DNA from: Zygotorulaspora mrakii
Lineage: Eukaryota > Ascomycota > Saccharomycetes > Saccharomycetales > Saccharomycetaceae
Direction: 5' to 3'
Length of the DNA: 64,000 nucleotides
NCBI RefSeq assembly: GCF_013402915.1
Contig: NC_050719.1
Location: 744,001 to 808,000 of the forward strand
The position numbers and the translations under genes were made by a program. Below the pieces are notes generated by a model. That model was not told the DNA's origin. It did no database searches and saw only the letters and a program-made list of their open reading frames with translations. Below, in pieces: positions 14,141 to 32,658 of the stretch. The stretch's first letter is position 1, and each line of letters starts with the position of its first letter.

Positions 14141-14833
14141 TCATTCAGGAAAAACAAGCTCGAATTCAACCTTCAACCTGTTTGAAAGTTCCTTCATAGT
14201 CATTTCTTGACTTTGTTTATCTTTGAGCGCATTCTCAAGTTTAGCAAATTCTTTCTCTTTCCAAACCTCTGCTTCTCTTATTTTTTCCTCTGCTTTGTCC
14301 TTATATTCCTGCTGTACTTCCTCGGGTAGCCTTTGAAACTCTTCCGATTCCAAAAGCTCGTCCATCTCGTTCTGGAATGAATCATCTACCTGATACTCTA
14401 GCTTTCTCTTCGCAGCTTCAAACTCTTTCCTCAGCAGTTCTTCATATCCTCCAGTTCTAGCTATCTTAATCAAGGTTGAATTCATAATGAATGACATTCC
14501 CGCTTGACATATGGTTCTCCATTTTTCGATCAGAAGCAGCACCTTTTCCTCTTCATCGTAATATTTTAGGATCTTTATTGCCTGCTTCAACTGATAATTA
14601 TCTTTCTTATAGAATCCTATCTGCTTGTTTAATTCCTCACAAAGTAATCTGTTTTCCGCCACTAGTTTTCGATCTTCATTGGAAACTGTGGACTTTTTAA
14701 AGACAGATTTTCGAACTTGTACTTGGGGAGTTCTCTCTGAGCTTAATGGTGATTTTAGAAAGATTTTGATCTTATTTTGATCTATTTTGAAGGGCCTGGG
14801 AGGCGAACTGCCAACGATTGTTGTGTCATCCAT
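14141..14833 (-). CDS. MEI5: Meiosis protein Mei5-like (Dmc1 accessory factor)
   Basis: A 230-residue, charged, largely helical protein with a coiled-coil-like C-terminal half (EEVQQEYKDKAEEKIREAE). The call rests mainly on position: between TFB2 (YPL122C) and VPS30 (YPL120W), in the orientation of MEI5 (YPL121C, 222 residues), with RET1 and NOC2 interleaved from the sister region. Mei5 with Sae3 loads Dmc1 during meiotic recombination and belongs to the Sfr1 family; the conserved C-terminal helical part would fit. The first ATG is at 14831-14833 (MDDTTIVGSSPP). The frame stays open for 43 more codons upstream but with no ATG. It converges on RET1 with about 120 bases between. Confidence 0.75.
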   Translation of the reverse strand: MDDTTIVGSSPPRPFKIDQNKIKIFLKSPLSSERTPQVQVRKSVFKKSTVSNEDRKLVAENRLLCEELNKQIGFYKKDNYQLKQAIKILKYYDEEEKVLLLIEKWRTICQAGMSFIMNSTLIKIARTGGYEELLRKEFEAAKRKLEYQVDDSFQNEMDELLESEEFQRLPEEVQQEYKDKAEEKIREAEVWKEKEFAKLENALKDKQSQEMTMKELSNRLKVEFELVFPE

Positions 14834-19407: not shown

Positions 19408-20874
19408 ATGAACGGTATAGAAGATAATTTGATTAAATGCCAAAATTGTCAGTTGCCGCTCAAAATAGACAGTTCACTGCTTGATTTAAGCCTGGCTCAA
19501 ACTGATATGCTAGTAAGTTCAGTCAACGAATATAAACAAGAGAATTATAAAATTCCACAAGAAAGGTTACAACGTCTGAATAAGGTGGTATATCCAAATG
19601 AGGTAAACTTACAGAAACTTGGGTTAGGATCTTACATCTTTCTCCAGGATGATATTAAAGTTGAAGACCCGAGTACTGTTGCATCGACGAATACATCACT
19701 TTCTACTTCCACAGCTCAGCGAGAAGATGATTCGGGTGATGAGCAAACGGAAGAGGATCGACAACACAGATATTCCGGATCTACTGTCAGAACGCTCTCT
19801 ACGCAAGTGAGCGCATTAGCTAATGTTTTCAACATCCTGTCTTCAAAGAGTAACATAGATTACCCAGTTTGTCAAGATTGTTGCAACATCTTGATACGAA
19901 GAATCCAGAGTGAATATGATGATGCTATAAAGGAAAGAGATCTTTATTCTCAGTTTTTGTCGAGGATTGAGAAACAGAAATCTTTGACATCTCATGATTC
20001 CTCAGATGATTCACACGATGAAGCTGAAAAGCTATTGAACGAGAAGGCATCCCTGCTACAAGAGTTAAAAACCCTAGAATTAGAGGATGAAGAACTGGAT
20101 AAACAAATAGCAGACTTGGAACAACAGCTGAAAGAGAAGAAGCGGTTGGAGGAAGAAGATACTAGAAGGAACAATTTCTATGAGTTGGAACAAGTTGACT
20201 TGGCCCGAGAAGTGCAATCCTTGAAAAACCAATACGATTTTTCTCTGAATTATCTTGACAAACTCCGAAAGATCAATATCTATAATGAAACTTTCAAAAT
20301 ATCACACGATGGACTTTTTGGGATAATCAATGGGCTTAGAATAGGTGGGTTTCAAGATGTCAATGTTCCGTGGCAGGAAATAAACGCAGGTATTGGTCAA
20401 GTAGTGTTACTTTTAGCCACCATTACCACTCGCCTTGAAATAAAATTGCAGGGTTATAAGTTGATTCCCATGGGGTCATATTCTAAAGTATCAAAATTCC
20501 AAGATGACACTCAAGAATGGGTGGCATATGAAGCATTCAATAATGATAACTTTAAAATAGGGAAATTATTCCGAAAAGAGACCAGTTTCGATAAAGCCAT
20601 GGAAAGCTTGTTGATTATTATAAGGCAAATGGCTGTTTGGCTTTCACATGCTAGATCTCAAAGGCATGGAAGCGTATACACAGCTGCAAGTGAAAATGAC
20701 GAGTTAAACGATGAAGAGATCGAGTTGCCTTACGTTATGCACAAGGATAAAATTAACGGAATATCAGTTAAGCTGTTCGGTGGCAGACCCGGCATGGATT
20801 GGACGACAGCAATGAAGTTCTTGTTAACTAACACAAAGTGGCTCTTTGCGTTTTCATCCAGTCAATTGGGTTAG
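19408..20874 (+). CDS. VPS30: Beclin 1 orthologue Vps30/Atg6
   Basis: A 488-residue subunit of both PI3-kinase complexes (with Vps34, Vps15 and Atg14 or Vps38), needed for autophagy and vacuolar sorting. CxxC pairs in LIKCQNCQLPLK and YPVCQDCCNILI frame the N-terminal region. A coiled coil covers roughly residues 190-280 (LLQELKTLELEDEELDKQIA and onward). The BARA domain fills the C-terminus (ISHDGLFGIINGLRIGGFQD and TAMKFLLTNTKWLFAFSSSQ). S. cerevisiae Vps30 is somewhat longer. The first ATG is at 19408. The next gene begins 208 bases downstream. Confidence 0.95.
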   Translation: MNGIEDNLIKCQNCQLPLKIDSSLLDLSLAQTDMLVSSVNEYKQENYKIPQERLQRLNKVVYPNEVNLQKLGLGSYIFLQDDIKVEDPSTVASTNTSLSTSTAQREDDSGDEQTEEDRQHRYSGSTVRTLSTQVSALANVFNILSSKSNIDYPVCQDCCNILIRRIQSEYDDAIKERDLYSQFLSRIEKQKSLTSHDSSDDSHDEAEKLLNEKASLLQELKTLELEDEELDKQIADLEQQLKEKKRLEEEDTRRNNFYELEQVDLAREVQSLKNQYDFSLNYLDKLRKINIYNETFKISHDGLFGIINGLRIGGFQDVNVPWQEINAGIGQVVLLLATITTRLEIKLQGYKLIPMGSYSKVSKFQDDTQEWVAYEAFNNDNFKIGKLFRKETSFDKAMESLLIIIRQMAVWLSHARSQRHGSVYTAASENDELNDEEIELPYVMHKDKINGISVKLFGGRPGMDWTTAMKFLLTNTKWLFAFSSSQLG

Positions 20875-21082
20875 AACAGGACGACTTTCAAGTGTCACAG
20901 AGGACGACCTAACAGTATTTTTATTAACAAAGATAAACACTTCAAGTTATTGTATGAATGCGCATTCCACCGTACCATATGTAGACTATATACGCTATCT
21001 TCTATTCAATATTATTGGCAGCGAGTGAGGTAGAGAAGTTGTTAGTGTGCGGCAAACCCTCACAACTCAAAAAGCAATAGTG

Positions 21083-23683
21083 ATGAGCAATGCCTTCGAC
21101 CCCGATGCACTGTCAAAAATGCTAAAAAAGCTGTCTTATGGTCTTAATAAAGATCATATTGATATTGATTATGCTATGGAGAGAGTTACCAAGGGGATAT
21201 CGAGTGCTGCGTCAAAACAGGAAATCATAGCATTTGTTGCGGAAACATTGGCTACGTTGGCCAGCATTCATCCCGATCATTCCATTTTAGCAGCAAGGCT
21301 GGAGATTCATGAGTTGCATAGATCATTAAACAACGTAACATTTACAGAGAACTTATCAGCTCTGTTATCAGTGTCTCGAACAGATGCAGAAGCAGCCTCG
21401 ATTGATGATGATCCGTTACGCAAGCGCCAGAAACTGAGTAGAGTGCCTAAGAAGGGAGTAATTTCACCACAGTTTTTTGCCTTAGCAAAGAAATACCAAG
21501 AACGTTTGAATAATGCTATCGTGTCGGAACGAGATTATGAGTTCACTTATTTTGGGTGGAAAACCCTATGCCAGTCCTATTTAATCAAAAAAGCGAATAA
21601 AGTGCATGAAACACCGCAGTTCATGTTCATGAGAGTTGCTCTCGCGATACATGGGCCGTACGATGATATCGATCTTGTTTTGTCTACCTACGAACTGATG
21701 TCCCAGAGATATTTTATACATGCTTCCCCTACATTGTTTAACGCAGGTACCGTCAATCAATACTTGTCTTCTTGTTTCCTGGTAGGAATGCAAGAAGACT
21801 CTATTGATGGAATTTATAAAACTCTGCACAAGACAGCATTGATTTCAAAGGCTTCTGGAGGCATAGGAATTCATGTTTCGAACATAAGGGCAAGCGGATC
21901 CTTCGTATCTGGGTCAAACGGGATTTCGAATGGACTGGTGCCCATGCTCCGTGTGTTCAACAATACTGCTAGGTATGTAGATCAAGGTGGTAATAAACGG
22001 CCTGGTGCGTACTGCATATACTTAGAGCCGTGGCATTCTGATATTTTCGACTTTTTGCAACTAAGAAAGAACCACGGTAAAGAGGAGATGAGAGCCCGTG
22101 ATTTGTTTTTGGCATTGTGGATACCTGATCTATTCATGGAACGTGTAGAGTCCAATGGTGATTGGTCTTTATTCAGTCCTGACGAGGCTCCTGGTTTAAA
22201 TGACGTCTATGGTGAGGAGTTCAACAAGTTATATGGGTATTACGAAGAAACACGGGCTCCGATGAGAGTTGTTAAAGCACAAAAACTGTGGGCAGAAATT
22301 TTGCAAAGTCAAACAGAAACTGGAGGTCCTTTTATGCTCTATAAAGATGCTTGCAATAAAAAATCAAACCAAAAAAACCTGGGAACTATAAAATCTTCTA
22401 ATTTGTGCTGTGAAATCGTAGAATATAGCTCAAAAGATGAGATTGCAGTTTGTAATTTAGCCTCGGTTGCTCTCCCATCTTTTGTCAGGACATCGAACAG
22501 TGAAACCAAATTGTTTGATTTTGATAAACTTCATAGTGTTGTGAAGGTTGTCACTAAAAATCTTGACAGAGTGATAGATATTGGAGATTATCCGGTCGAA
22601 GAGGCTAGAAATAGTAACCTGAAGCATCGTCCTGAGGCTATTGGGGTACAGGGTTTGGCAGATCTATTCTTTATTTTAAAAATTCCATTTGAGTCAGAAG
22701 AGGCCAGTACTTTGAACAAACAAATCTTCGAAACAATATATCATGCAGCTATAGAAGCATCTATTGAACTAGCAGAGGAGTATGGGCCATACAGCAGTTT
22801 TGAATCATCTCCCTCGAGCGAAGGTATACTTCAGTTTGATTTCTGGAAGAAACCAAACCAGAAATATGACTTTCTGTACAAAGACTGGGATGATATCAAA
22901 GAGAGGATAAAAAATCGCGGTCTTCGAAATTCGCTGTTAGTAGGCCCCATGCCTACTGCGTCTACCTCACAAATACTGGGCTACAATGAATCATTCGAGC
23001 CAATGACGTCAAATGTTTATACTAGAAGGGTTTTAAGTGGGGAATTTATCGTCATAAATCAACACATGGTTAATCATTTTTGTGATCTAGGTATATGGGA
23101 TGAGAAATTGAAAAACAAGATAATTATGCATGATGGATCTGTCAAGGACATAGAGGGACTTCCGGAATGGATCAAAGACATTTATAAAACAGTGTGGGAA
23201 ATACCACAAAGACGGTTGATTGATCTGGCGAGAGAACGCTCTCCCTTCATCGACCAGTCTCAAAGCTTGAATTTATTCATGAAAACACCTACAATGGGCA
23301 AGCTAACAGGAATGCATTTTTATGCGTGGAGACAAGGACTAAAGACTGGGATGTATTATTTGAGAACACAAGCAGCTGCAGCTGCAATTCAATTCACTAT
23401 CAACAGCGAAAATACTTTAGCGAGTGGTGTCAGCCTACCAAAATCTAAAAGGCAAGAGAAAAAGGATATAGTTTCTGGAATATATCCGCTTAGTGCAGAT
23501 AAAGAGCTTTTTATTCACTTCTTTAGTGAAGCAGGTGAATCCCTGGCAAATTTAAAAAAAGATGATTATAACAATAAAGGTAACGTAGACTCGTGTGATG
23601 ACGTCTTTGGAATACATGATTCGACACCATTAGCGTGTAATTTAGGTGACAATGGTGAGGTTTGTGAGGGTTGCTCGGGTTGA
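21083..23683 (+). CDS. Divergent ribonucleotide reductase large subunit (Rnr1/Rnr3 paralogue)
   Basis: An 866-residue class Ia ribonucleotide reductase alpha subunit, which would reduce NDPs to dNDPs. Catalytic features are intact: Cys231 in LSSCFLVG, specificity loop 2 (ARYVDQGGNKRPGAY), the radical-site block SNLCCEIVEYS followed by AVCNLASVALP, the tyrosine pair in TGMYYLRTQAAA, and the C-terminal CEGCSG swinging-arm cysteines. It differs from Rnr1 in two ways. The N-terminal ATP-cone lacks the first dozen or so residues that carry the KRDGR-type motif; the first ATG is at 21083 and no in-frame upstream sequence supplies them. There is also a basic insert, RKRQKLSRVPKK (113-124), resembling a nuclear localisation signal. 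S. cerevisiae has no RNR gene here. The upstream gap of 208 bases shows no MluI box or Crt1 X-box. Confidence 0.9.
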   Translation: MSNAFDPDALSKMLKKLSYGLNKDHIDIDYAMERVTKGISSAASKQEIIAFVAETLATLASIHPDHSILAARLEIHELHRSLNNVTFTENLSALLSVSRTDAEAASIDDDPLRKRQKLSRVPKKGVISPQFFALAKKYQERLNNAIVSERDYEFTYFGWKTLCQSYLIKKANKVHETPQFMFMRVALAIHGPYDDIDLVLSTYELMSQRYFIHASPTLFNAGTVNQYLSSCFLVGMQEDSIDGIYKTLHKTALISKASGGIGIHVSNIRASGSFVSGSNGISNGLVPMLRVFNNTARYVDQGGNKRPGAYCIYLEPWHSDIFDFLQLRKNHGKEEMRARDLFLALWIPDLFMERVESNGDWSLFSPDEAPGLNDVYGEEFNKLYGYYEETRAPMRVVKAQKLWAEILQSQTETGGPFMLYKDACNKKSNQKNLGTIKSSNLCCEIVEYSSKDEIAVCNLASVALPSFVRTSNSETKLFDFDKLHSVVKVVTKNLDRVIDIGDYPVEEARNSNLKHRPEAIGVQGLADLFFILKIPFESEEASTLNKQIFETIYHAAIEASIELAEEYGPYSSFESSPSSEGILQFDFWKKPNQKYDFLYKDWDDIKERIKNRGLRNSLLVGPMPTASTSQILGYNESFEPMTSNVYTRRVLSGEFIVINQHMVNHFCDLGIWDEKLKNKIIMHDGSVKDIEGLPEWIKDIYKTVWEIPQRRLIDLARERSPFIDQSQSLNLFMKTPTMGKLTGMHFYAWRQGLKTGMYYLRTQAAAAAIQFTINSENTLASGVSLPKSKRQEKKDIVSGIYPLSADKELFIHFFSEAGESLANLKKDDYNNKGNVDSCDDVFGIHDSTPLACNLGDNGEVCEGCSG

Positions 23684-24367: not shown

Positions 24368-26584
<2,217 letters not shown>

Positions 26585-31254: not shown

Positions 31255-32658
31255 ATGTCTTCTCAACAGCAGCATCATAAGTACAAGAGACCAGATGTCT
31301 CTGTCAGAGACAAAAAACTAGAGGTGTTGAACGCTCAATTGAAGAAGGTCGACACCGAGATTTCCTCTTTGAGAAAGCAGATCGATCAGAATCAAGTCAA
31401 TGATGCCACGCAACAAGAAAGGAAAAAGTTGCAAGATCAGACGAAGGAGATTATCAAGACACAGGCTGAATTGAAGACTCGCAGAAATGCTATTCACGAT
31501 AGTATCAAGCAATTGGATTCTCAAATGAAGAGAAAGACCAATGAGATCAATGAAAAACTGGGTAGAAAGGCAAAATTTTCTACTCCACAGGAGGTAAAAC
31601 AGAGACTAGCTGAGATTGAGGACTCTATTTCATCTGGCAATCTGTCTTTGGTGGATGAGAAAATGCTCGTTAAGGAGATGCAATCCTTGAATAAGCTTAA
31701 CAAGGATCTCGTGGCTATTGAACCCATTAAGAAATCCGTGGATCAAGACAAGGCCAAGATTGTTGCTTTGAAGGAAGAATTGAATCAATTGAACCCAAGA
31801 GAAGTTGCTGCTAAATTCGAAACTACCCAAGAGAAGTTGAATACGCTGGTCTCCAAGTCGCAAACCGTTTACGATAAGAGACAGACTTTGTATAACAAGC
31901 GTTCTGCTTTATACAACAAACGTGATGAAATCTACTCTCAAATAAAACAAATTAGAGCTGATTTCGATAACGAGTTCCAAGCTTTCAAGCAAAAATTGGA
32001 GAAAGAACGTTTGAAGCGTGAAGAGGATCAAAAGTTGTCCAAATTGCTTGAGGAGAAAGATGGCCAATTAGGTAAATTGCAAGAAAAATTGAGTCATGCC
32101 AAGCAACCAGCATTCACGTTTGAAATTGAAGCAATTGAGAATGCATTGTTGTCCTTAGATCCAACCTATGAAAAACCAAAGAAAAACGTTTTTGGTGAAC
32201 TTGAAGAAACCAAGAAACCTGAATCCCAACCTGTTAAAGCTGTTGTGGCTGATGACTTGGTCCTTGTCTCAAACGAAAAGGAGCAATCAAACTACTCCAA
32301 TACCGCTCCATCAAAGTCTAAGAAACATAAGAAGAAGCAAAAGTCCGCTGCTTCCGCCACTTCTATTACTGACAATGGAAGGTTCAGCTTAGAGCCAACT
32401 TTGATTGCCATGCTTGCTGAACTAGATGTTATTGTTCCAATCTCTAAAGAAGAAGTTCCAAAAGCAATCGAACAATTAAAGCACAAGCACGAAAATTTTT
32501 TGGCTAAGCAAGATGAACAAACCGATAAGAACATTTCTGAAGTAGAGAAAGAAATTGAAAAATTGGAACTTGGTTATTCTAAAAAGGAGGAGCAAATCAA
32601 GAAAGAACTGGAAGCCAAGAGAGTCCAGGAAAAACAGGATGACAAAGAAAATAATTAA
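31255..32658 (+). CDS. BFR1: mRNP-associated coiled-coil protein Bfr1
   Basis: A 467-residue, highly charged coiled-coil protein. Bfr1 associates with polysomal mRNP complexes at the ER together with Scp160 and influences P-body formation and ploidy. Long heptad-rich helices run through most of the length (EVLNAQLKKVDTEISSLRKQ and later segments), with YDKRQTLYNKRSALYNKRDE a distinctive family segment near residue 205, and a lysine-rich break (SKSKKHKKKQKS) near 352-363. Length matches S. cerevisiae Bfr1 (470). Codon usage looks biased toward preferred codons, in keeping with high expression. It converges on MCA1. Confidence 0.95.
   Translation: MSSQQQHHKYKRPDVSVRDKKLEVLNAQLKKVDTEISSLRKQIDQNQVNDATQQERKKLQDQTKEIIKTQAELKTRRNAIHDSIKQLDSQMKRKTNEINEKLGRKAKFSTPQEVKQRLAEIEDSISSGNLSLVDEKMLVKEMQSLNKLNKDLVAIEPIKKSVDQDKAKIVALKEELNQLNPREVAAKFETTQEKLNTLVSKSQTVYDKRQTLYNKRSALYNKRDEIYSQIKQIRADFDNEFQAFKQKLEKERLKREEDQKLSKLLEEKDGQLGKLQEKLSHAKQPAFTFEIEAIENALLSLDPTYEKPKKNVFGELEETKKPESQPVKAVVADDLVLVSNEKEQSNYSNTAPSKSKKHKKKQKSAASATSITDNGRFSLEPTLIAMLAELDVIVPISKEEVPKAIEQLKHKHENFLAKQDEQTDKNISEVEKEIEKLELGYSKKEEQIKKELEAKRVQEKQDDKENN

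Follow-up and report, generated by a model that had tools for sequence, protein, structure and literature searches.

Feedback inhibition by dATP through the ATP-cone of the ribonucleotide reductase (RNR) large subunit is regarded as protecting the dNTP pools of eukaryotes, and the large subunit (R1) of budding yeast is described as constitutively cytoplasmic. In the mouse enzyme, according to excerpts of PMC3267527, a D57-R21 salt bridge lies in the a-site and dATP/ATP discrimination is abolished by D57N; excerpts of PMC6545439 describe rnr1-D57N as an ATP/dATP-site mutant. PMC3267527 also notes cases, T. brucei and T4, in which a cone binds dATP yet does not inhibit, and a portion of PMC6572854 reports that in B. 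subtilis NrdE a truncated cone can carry a new inhibitory site. For S. cerevisiae, a passage of PMC11149843 states that 'R1 is constitutively cytoplasmic' and that Dif1 promotes import of R2 into the nucleus, and Rnr3 is given as the whole-genome-duplication sister of Rnr1 in part of PMC6545439. For K. lactis, an excerpt of PMC8465852, which mentions neither a cone nor an NLS, describes KLLA0F01188g as a large-subunit ORF less similar to ScRnr1/Rnr3 than KLLA0C07887g is, alongside one small-subunit gene.

The window analysed here, a stretch of 64,000 nucleotides from Zygotorulaspora mrakii, carries an RNR large-subunit gene between VPS30/ATG6 and a DED1-type DEAD-box helicase gene (Table 1). 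A search of the genome found two large-subunit genes, this one and an ordinary RNR1 with an ATP-cone, as the initial annotation had expected. Judged by its sequence, the window protein belongs to the class I RNR large subunits (NrdA type, eukaryotic) and is intact, with all catalytic motifs present, which agrees with its first description as an extra subunit with a complete catalytic set: Pfam gives 707 bits for the barrel (PF02867) and 89 bits for the all-alpha domain (PF00317), yeast Rnr1 is the best PDB match both by sequence and by fold, and the cysteines (Rnr1 residue numbers taken from the alignment of the two proteins), loop 2, Tyr758-Tyr759, the radical-transfer pair, and the CEGC tail are all found. 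It is probably a working enzyme; a pseudogene is ruled out by the open frame and by catalytic motifs kept across the family described below. The protein resembles Rnr1/RRM1 (NrdAe, class Ia) in its barrel, all-alpha domain, three active-site cysteines, loop 2, tyrosine pair and CxxC tail, but unlike them it lacks VxKRDG, D57 and the beta-cap, and the linker of its family is longer; the combination that marks overall-activity control in class Ia, an ATP-cone with VxKRDG and Asp57, is not found in it.

Table 1. Features of the RNR paralogue locus (window coordinates).
Feature	Position	Strand	Remark
VPS30/ATG6 (flank)	19408..20874	+	
Intergenic stretch between VPS30 and the RNR gene, 208 bp	20875..21082	+	TATATA at -96; MCB/SCB/X-box patterns absent
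In-frame TGA upstream of the ATG	21026..21028	+	18 codons between, none giving KRDG
CDS, RNR large-subunit paralogue, 866 aa	21083..23683	+	open reading frame as initially annotated
Remnant ATP-cone, residues 7-82	21101..21328	+	AlphaFold: helices 7-16, 28-38, 45-61, 65-82; no beta-cap
Ile49, aligned with RNR1 Asp57 (D57N feedback site)	21227..21229	+	
Low-confidence (disordered) linker, residues 102-123	21386..21451	+	AlphaFold pLDDT < 50
Basic segment RKRQKLSRVPKK, residues 113-124	21419..21454	+	Lys114 invariant in 29/29 Saccharomycetaceae paralogues
Cys231 (= Rnr1 C218)	21773..21775	+	alignment to Rnr1
Specificity loop 2, QGGNKRPG, residues 301-308	21983..22006	+	
Cys442 (= Rnr1 C428)	22406..22408	+	alignment to Rnr1
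Cys457 (= Rnr1 C443)	22451..22453	+	alignment to Rnr1
Tyr758-Tyr759	23354..23359	+	
CEGC redox tail, C-terminal	23663..23674	+	
DED1-type DEAD-box helicase (flank)	24368..26185	-	

In place of the first twelve residues of RNR1 the window protein has four, MSNA, so that VxKRDG is gone; the alignment opens gaps opposite RNR1 residues 1-2 and 6-11 and pairs Phe5 with RNR1 V13. The claim that the ATP-contact motif is missing holds, and an in-frame TGA stands 18 codons before the ATG. A mis-called start, a hidden upstream exon or a sequencing error that conceals a normal cone is therefore close to inconceivable, and no point in its favour was found: besides this TGA, KRDG was not found in any frame of 20775-21160, neither TACTAAC nor GT[AG]TGT was found in 20701-21100, and relaxed splice patterns matched the latter stretch only at 20952 (GTATG) and 20827 (ACTAAC), an order that does not fit an intron. 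KRDG is also missing from all 29 Saccharomycetaceae family members, window protein included (0/29 within the first 60 residues), and the genome has an intact RNR1 elsewhere.

No Pfam match to the ATP-cone was obtained for the window protein even at E ≤ 10, against 56 bits for the genome's own RNR1, which was the sole match when the genome was searched for the cone at that threshold. AlphaFold predicts four helices in the remnant, so the modelled cone is still there, though shorter and mutated; the model of RNR1, used as a control, has strands at residues 2-4 and 10-12. The initial annotation of a truncated cone was right about the lost start and VxKRDG, but the decay extends past the start, with Ile49 at the position of D57 and, in the alignment, Met13 at that of R21. 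Across the family the domain is eroded, not gone, as a cone match of 38 bits remains in P0002, the nearest relative, and the cone passes E ≤ 0.001 in six of 29 members. Further afield, the W. ciferrii protein P0042 has a recognisable cone (35.6 bits), and none was found at E ≤ 1 in C. orthopsilosis P0145. Identity among the 29 members is 0.42 in the cone versus 0.76 in the core, and among RNR1s 0.84 versus 0.87; R21 is kept in 88/88 RNR1s, 6/29 family members and 4/72 other paralogues.

The comparison covers 189 proteins, the genome's own RNR1 plus 188 from three homologue searches, two of which gave the best 120 of about 8000; as the searches used paralogue queries, the sampling leans to paralogues. 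A region-limited search with residues 1-150 of the window protein gave four proteins. D57 is kept in 88/189 and absent in 101/189, and this residue defines the RNR1 and paralogue sets. In a tree of all 189 proteins, built on the core with the cone left out, one branch with support 1.0 splits D57-keeping from D57-lacking proteins exactly, and IQ-TREE gave 100/100 for the same split with 58 of the 189 rows (18 family, 30 other paralogues, 10 RNR1), picked by identity cut-offs and <15% gaps with some forced in. The root depends on the sole non-yeast outgroup, P0121 (coconut), which has an oddly high search score and no GGNKRPG string; the RNR1/paralogue split does not. The 101 paralogues were divided by search rank into 29 of the Saccharomycetaceae family (the window protein, 15 species-labelled proteins and 13 from other assemblies) and 72 others, and this division matches a 29-leaf clade with support 1.0. 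The paralogue also occurs in Zygosaccharomyces, Torulaspora, Lachancea, Kluyveromyces, Eremothecium, Wickerhamomyces, Debaryomyces, Candida and others. On these trees the window gene belongs to an old, long-conserved budding-yeast paralogue clade, and the loss of D57 is older than this genome and marks the entire clade. The extra, divergent large subunit first reported here is thus confirmed but is not peculiar to the species, and a species-specific duplicate or decay is ruled out by a 29-member family with common traits. SSCF, SNLC, CNLAS, MYYLR and the CxxC tail are present in 29/29 members and the exact loop 2 in 28/29; among the 72 other paralogues CNLAS is found in 30 and loop 2 QGGNKRPG in 55, the variants being mostly CNLGS and QGGGKRPG.

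Short basic motifs occur frequently and need not be nuclear localisation signals (NLSs), whose classical monopartite consensus is K-[KR]-x-[KR]. The basic insert reported after the cone is real, and the window protein carries the consensus there as KRQK (114-117), in the predicted disordered stretch. The linker has a mean length of 34.8 aa in the family versus 19.8 in RNR1s, and K-[KR]-x-[KR] is found at one linker position in 28/29 members and 0/88 RNR1s, with P0021 (RKRQAR) as the exception; shuffled linkers gave a mean of 6.4 and a maximum of 15 of 29. By regex the pattern occurs in 7/72 other paralogues. The conserved motif most likely acts as an NLS, and a nuclear location of the family paralogue is somewhat favoured. 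That it is instead a docking, nucleic-acid-binding or phospho-regulated site in an enzyme as cytoplasmic as Rnr1 seems distinctly less likely: such motifs have many uses and a CDK-like S/T-P site lies beside this one in 9/29 members (it is absent from the window protein), but a consensus fixed in place within a disordered, otherwise variable linker has the look of a classical monopartite NLS.

ACGCGT (MCB) occurs three times upstream of the genome's RNR1 and not upstream of the window gene, where SCB, X-box, Reb1, Rap1, STRE and Yap patterns were also not found; no X-box was found upstream of RNR1. This comparison applies S. cerevisiae motifs (MCB/SCB/X-box) to one species. The optimal-codon fraction is 0.405 for the window gene versus 0.534 for RNR1. 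The missing MCB and poorer codons lean slightly towards the suggested use outside S phase, which is a tentative reading. The genome search found one R2 and one Dif1/Aer122c-like protein.

It is proposed, at roughly even odds, that the paralogue is an active, dATP-blind, probably nuclear (in Saccharomycetaceae) second alpha subunit that shares R2 and makes feedback-blind dNTPs for repair outside S phase. In this proposal RNR1 was duplicated long ago among budding yeasts, giving a second catalytically competent alpha subunit whose cone has lost the VxKRDG beta-cap, the feedback residue D57 and, in the window protein, R21, the pairing partner of D57. With these lost, dATP should no longer turn the enzyme off, and the absence of dATP inhibition from the window enzyme is, on sequence grounds, quite probable; as the specificity loop is kept, dNTP balance should stay controlled. 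The paralogue presumably shares the one R2 found with RNR1, and in Saccharomycetaceae may have gained its disordered linker with the conserved K-[KR]-x-[KR], most likely an NLS. RNR1 (MCB boxes, feedback-controlled, cytoplasmic) would provide the bulk S-phase dNTP supply, and the paralogue, at low expression and paired with R2 that is kept nuclear outside S phase, a small feedback-blind supply for repair.

The paralogue might also be a helper subunit that acts mainly in mixed oligomers with RNR1, a mixture only partly feedback-resistant because the cone of RNR1 still senses ATP/dATP. The single RNR1 and R2 found in the genome fit this, its low codon adaptation points to a protein less abundant than RNR1, and S. 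cerevisiae Rnr3 behaves similarly, having low activity alone and being stimulated by Rnr1; however, catalytic motifs kept across all 29 members go beyond the needs of a purely structural helper, and mixed dimers are not assured because the barrel is 65% identical to that of RNR1 (344/526), and we consider this role rather improbable. Less likely again is a reduced cone with a new nucleotide-dependent inhibitory interface, like the truncated NrdE cone that serves as precedent (excerpts of PMC6572854). The four helices predicted with high confidence and the invariance of H63, R72, E74 and H79 (29/29) speak for it; the cone is nevertheless far less conserved than the core (see above), and the conservation of H63, R72 and H79 may be plain packing since they correspond to RNR1 H71, R80 and H87. 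A dNTP-independent function, as proposed for mitochondrial S. cerevisiae Rnr3, where the respiratory growth defect is still rescued by rnr3-C428A (part of PMC6545439), is very unlikely here, given that all 29 members keep the catalytic cysteines, the tyrosine pair and the redox tail.

Extending the proposed repair role of a feedback-blind subunit, many budding yeasts might combine a nuclear, NLS-bearing R1 of this kind with R2 held by Dif1/Aer122c-type import outside S phase, for repair dNTPs made on site, and S. cerevisiae, the model for RNR control, might be exceptional in having lost the system after its whole-genome duplication and made Rnr3/Rnr4 instead; this is speculative and, on balance, unlikely. 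If true, holding R2 in the nucleus would not serve only as an off-switch but would pass R2 on to a second enzyme. If confirmed, a long-conserved paralogue without key feedback residues and with an NLS-like motif would qualify the views both of dATP feedback as a safeguard and of a cytoplasmic R1, nuclear dNTP synthesis would become a testable question in non-pathogenic laboratory yeasts, and RNR control in S. cerevisiae would not be representative of many budding yeasts. In open-licence PMC literature, searched by title and abstract start, no cone-degenerate or NLS-bearing yeast large subunit was found, which is no proof of absence.

Both S. cerevisiae Rnr3 and the window protein are second large subunits of budding yeasts; Rnr3, whose sequence lies outside our set, is the whole-genome-duplication sister of Rnr1, whereas the window protein and the 88 RNR1s sampled fall on opposite sides of a supported branch. 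An RNR3 orthologue was rejected on its position outside these 88 (own RNR1 and T. phaffii included) and on the origin of Rnr3 given in part of PMC6545439. The Candida 'Rnr3' (C. orthopsilosis P0145) and the second large subunits of Debaryomyces, Scheffersomyces, Wickerhamomyces and Cyberlindnera stand on the same side of the tree as the window protein, with D57 lost and a short linker. Large subunits with a reduced or lost cone are also known from bacteria (class Ib NrdE) and viruses (cone-less NrdAe), through separate losses. Judged by its published description, KLLA0F01188g of K. lactis is likely the orthologue of the window gene.

The 866 codons open in the window encode a large subunit of class I ribonucleotide reductase (RNR) in which Pfam recognises both the barrel and the all-alpha domains, and yeast Rnr1 (1002 bits, residues 8-775) is its closest solved relative in sequence. 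Its N-terminal ATP-cone is left unmatched by Pfam, even at E<=10. The initial annotation had described an enzyme with intact active-site cysteines, loop 2, tyrosine pair and CxxC tail, and all of these were found. It had also claimed that the start of the cone is lost with no room for it in frame; in the alignment four residues, MSNA, indeed replace the first twelve of RNR1, the nearest upstream in-frame stop lies 18 codons before the start, and KRDG is coded in no upstream frame. An upstream exon restoring the cone, which it had named as a possible refutation, finds no usable splice signal, as TACTAAC and GT[AG]TGT are absent upstream of the gene and only a GTATG and an ACTAAC occur there. 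The ordinary RNR1 that it expected elsewhere is encoded on contig C6 (881 aa, N-terminus MFVYKRDGHKEPV), so that the source genome holds at least two large-subunit genes by six-frame search; such counts are lower bounds because these searches score only the best candidates. Among those candidates, the cone of this RNR1 is the sole one in the genome at E<=10.

Features of the window and related loci on other contigs of the source genome
Feature	Location	Strand	Remark
RNR large-subunit paralogue	window 21083-23683	+	
VPS30			flanks the paralogue on one side
DED1-type helicase			flanks the paralogue on the other side
GTATG	window 20952		
ACTAAC	window 20827		
Mei5-family double-strand-break repair protein	window 14141-14833		recombination gene ~6 kb upstream of the paralogue
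467-aa open frame	window 31255-32658	+	no Pfam match at E<=0.001
Small-subunit (R2) gene	contig C3, L003:1354-2580		Rnr2-like
191-aa open frame	contig C5, L005:1300-1875		RNR-inhibitor motif, Aer122c/Dif1-like

The window protein served as query twice and an alignment of 23 other paralogues once; together these searches listed 188 proteins, the window's own among them, to which the RNR1 of this genome was added; among these 189 listed proteins, 88 have Asp at the position of the RNR1 feedback residue D57 and 101 do not. The sorting was done on D57 itself, so its recovery was tested in a tree built without the cone: in a FastTree of the core, one branch with support 1.0 divides exactly the 88 from the 101, and in an IQ-TREE of 58 chosen rows both the RNR1/paralogue split and the Saccharomycetaceae paralogues received 100/100. 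The latter number 29 (15 with a species name, 13 without, and the window's), the named genera among the matches listed being Zygosaccharomyces, Torulaspora, Lachancea, Kluyveromyces and Eremothecium/Ashbya, which we take to predate the whole-genome duplication. The other 72, again among the matches listed, include Wickerhamomyces, Cyberlindnera, Debaryomyces, Scheffersomyces, Candida, Spathaspora, Babjeviella and Pachysolen. Proteins of Lipomyces and Limtongia fall on the RNR1 side; the root depends on a single plant protein of doubtful quality and does not fix the order of the duplication and the Lipomyces split. We judge the family to be genuine, ancient and conserved, a variation on a known enzyme and not a new kind. 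Against the yeast paralogue profile, the 968-aa coconut RNR1 P0121 (Cocos nucifera) reaches 1522 bits and exceeds the listed yeast RNR1s, with an identity of just 62% over 73% and no GGNKRPG, and is perhaps a faulty gene model. Two Pichia kudriavzevii RNR1s, P0177 and P0178 (1078 and 1019 aa), are listed with extra Pfam accessions, presumably EF-hand, and are either gene-model fusions with a neighbour or real fusions.

KRDG within the first 60 residues is found in 80/88 RNR1s, 0/29 Saccharomycetaceae paralogues and 1/72 other paralogues. Arg at R21, reported as the salt-bridge partner of D57 (PMC3267527), is present in all 88 RNR1s, 6/29 and 4/72, respectively. Mean pairwise identity among the 29 is 0.42 in the cone versus 0.76 in the core, but 0.84 versus 0.87 among the RNR1s, which suggests that constraint on the cone is relaxed in the Saccharomycetaceae paralogues. 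Pfam still recognises a cone at E<=0.001 in 6 of the 29 and, among 23 other paralogues, in 13, indicating uneven decay; P0002, the nearest relative of the window protein among the matches listed, retains one of 38 bits. The AlphaFold model of the window protein (62-row alignment) contains four cone helices (block means 86-95 over residues 11-90) and no beta-cap strands, whereas the RNR1 control P0110 (39 rows) has strands at 2-4 and 10-12 followed by four matching helices. On these models, the helix bundle seems to survive as a packing domain from which the nucleotide-holding lid is gone.

The basic segment said to follow the cone was located at residues 113-124 (RKRQKLSRVPKK), in the linker between cone and core. 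This linker averages 34.8 aa in the 29, versus 19.8 in the RNR1s and 19.9 in the other paralogues, and carries K-[KR]-x-[KR] in 28/29, 0/88 and 7/72, respectively; with shuffled linkers, the motif appeared in 6.4 of the 29 on average and in 15 at most over 2000 trials. Per 1000 aa, the 29 proteins have 30.7 motifs in the linker and 1.1 in the core. The sole exception, P0021, has RKRQAR. Amid variable columns, Lys114, R/K at 115 and K/R at 124 are conserved in 29/29 and K/R at 117 in 28/29. AlphaFold predicts disorder in the window protein's linker (pLDDT < 50, 102-123), and the simplest reading of the motif is a putative nuclear localisation signal. A CDK-like S/T-P site adjoins it in 9/29, the window protein not included.

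In S. cerevisiae, R1 is described as always cytoplasmic, nuclear import of R2 promoted by Dif1 inhibits dNTP synthesis, and small RNR subpopulations are reported on MCM (PMC11149843). A large subunit of the present type, with its own putative signal, would meet R2 inside the nucleus; with D57 and the beta-cap lost, dATP should not shut it off, and the intact loop 2 should let it keep the four dNTPs balanced. The P. aeruginosa enzyme is reported to lose overall regulation but keep specificity regulation once its N-terminal cone is removed (PMC3267527). Caution is needed, however: cones in T. brucei and T4 bind dATP without inhibition (PMC3267527), and the truncated cone of B. subtilis NrdE provides a new inhibitory site (PMC6572854). 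Feedback loss in the window protein is likely and a nuclear location plausible; its physiological role is a guess.

At least one small subunit was found in the genome, most like yeast small chain 1, which we take to be Rnr2; a separate Rnr4 was not found among the best candidates scored. K. lactis is likewise reported to be without one (PMC8465852). The RNR-inhibitor family profile finds at least one match in the genome (E 9.5e-4, over positions 2-26 of the profile's 105), a protein whose C-terminal stretch looks, to our eye, Sml1-like. This protein has GMRIRQS followed by GY, a pattern described for Aer122c/Dif1 proteins (PMC4245953), and may serve both in R2 import and in R1 inhibition.

Three ACGCGT boxes lie within 320 bp upstream of RNR1 and none in the 208-bp intergenic region of the window gene, where SCB and X-box patterns are also absent (X-box being absent at RNR1 too). 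Optimal codons make up a fraction of 0.405 in the window gene and 0.534 in RNR1; among the neighbours, the DED1-type gene has 0.584, VPS30 0.444 and the GTPase gene past VPS30 0.435. The codon set and promoter motifs are those of S. cerevisiae, and the comparison covers one species. This pattern fits a low, non-S-phase expression of the window gene. We take the S. cerevisiae duplicate tracks of this region to be VPS30-DBP1 and YOR205C-DED1; to our knowledge neither carries an RNR gene, and this gene order would be consistent with loss of the paralogue after duplication. A second large-subunit ORF had already been noticed in K. lactis (PMC8465852). The database name Rnr3 on one Candida paralogue is misleading, because S. 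cerevisiae Rnr3 is the whole-genome-duplication sister of Rnr1 (PMC6545439). The eukaryotic RNR clade is described as mostly single-cone, with the cone retained (PMC9669993), and searches of the open-licence literature listed no publication whose title or abstract beginning concerns this cone loss or basic motif.

The catalytic motifs SSCF, SNLC, CNLAS and MYYLR and the CxxC tail are each present in 29/29 Saccharomycetaceae paralogues, and exact QGGNKRPG in 28/29. The corresponding counts in the 72 others are SSCF 71, SNLC 72, CNLAS 30, MYYLR 72, tail 70 and QGGNKRPG 55; because the departures are for the most part CNLGS and QGGGKRPG, the cysteine is read as mostly retained and loop 2 as altered in some. 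Right before the redox cysteines, [FY]GIHDxTP occurs in 22/29, 0/72 other paralogues and 0/88 RNR1s, and a looser C-terminal I-x-[DN]-x-T-P in 27, 44 and 0, respectively.
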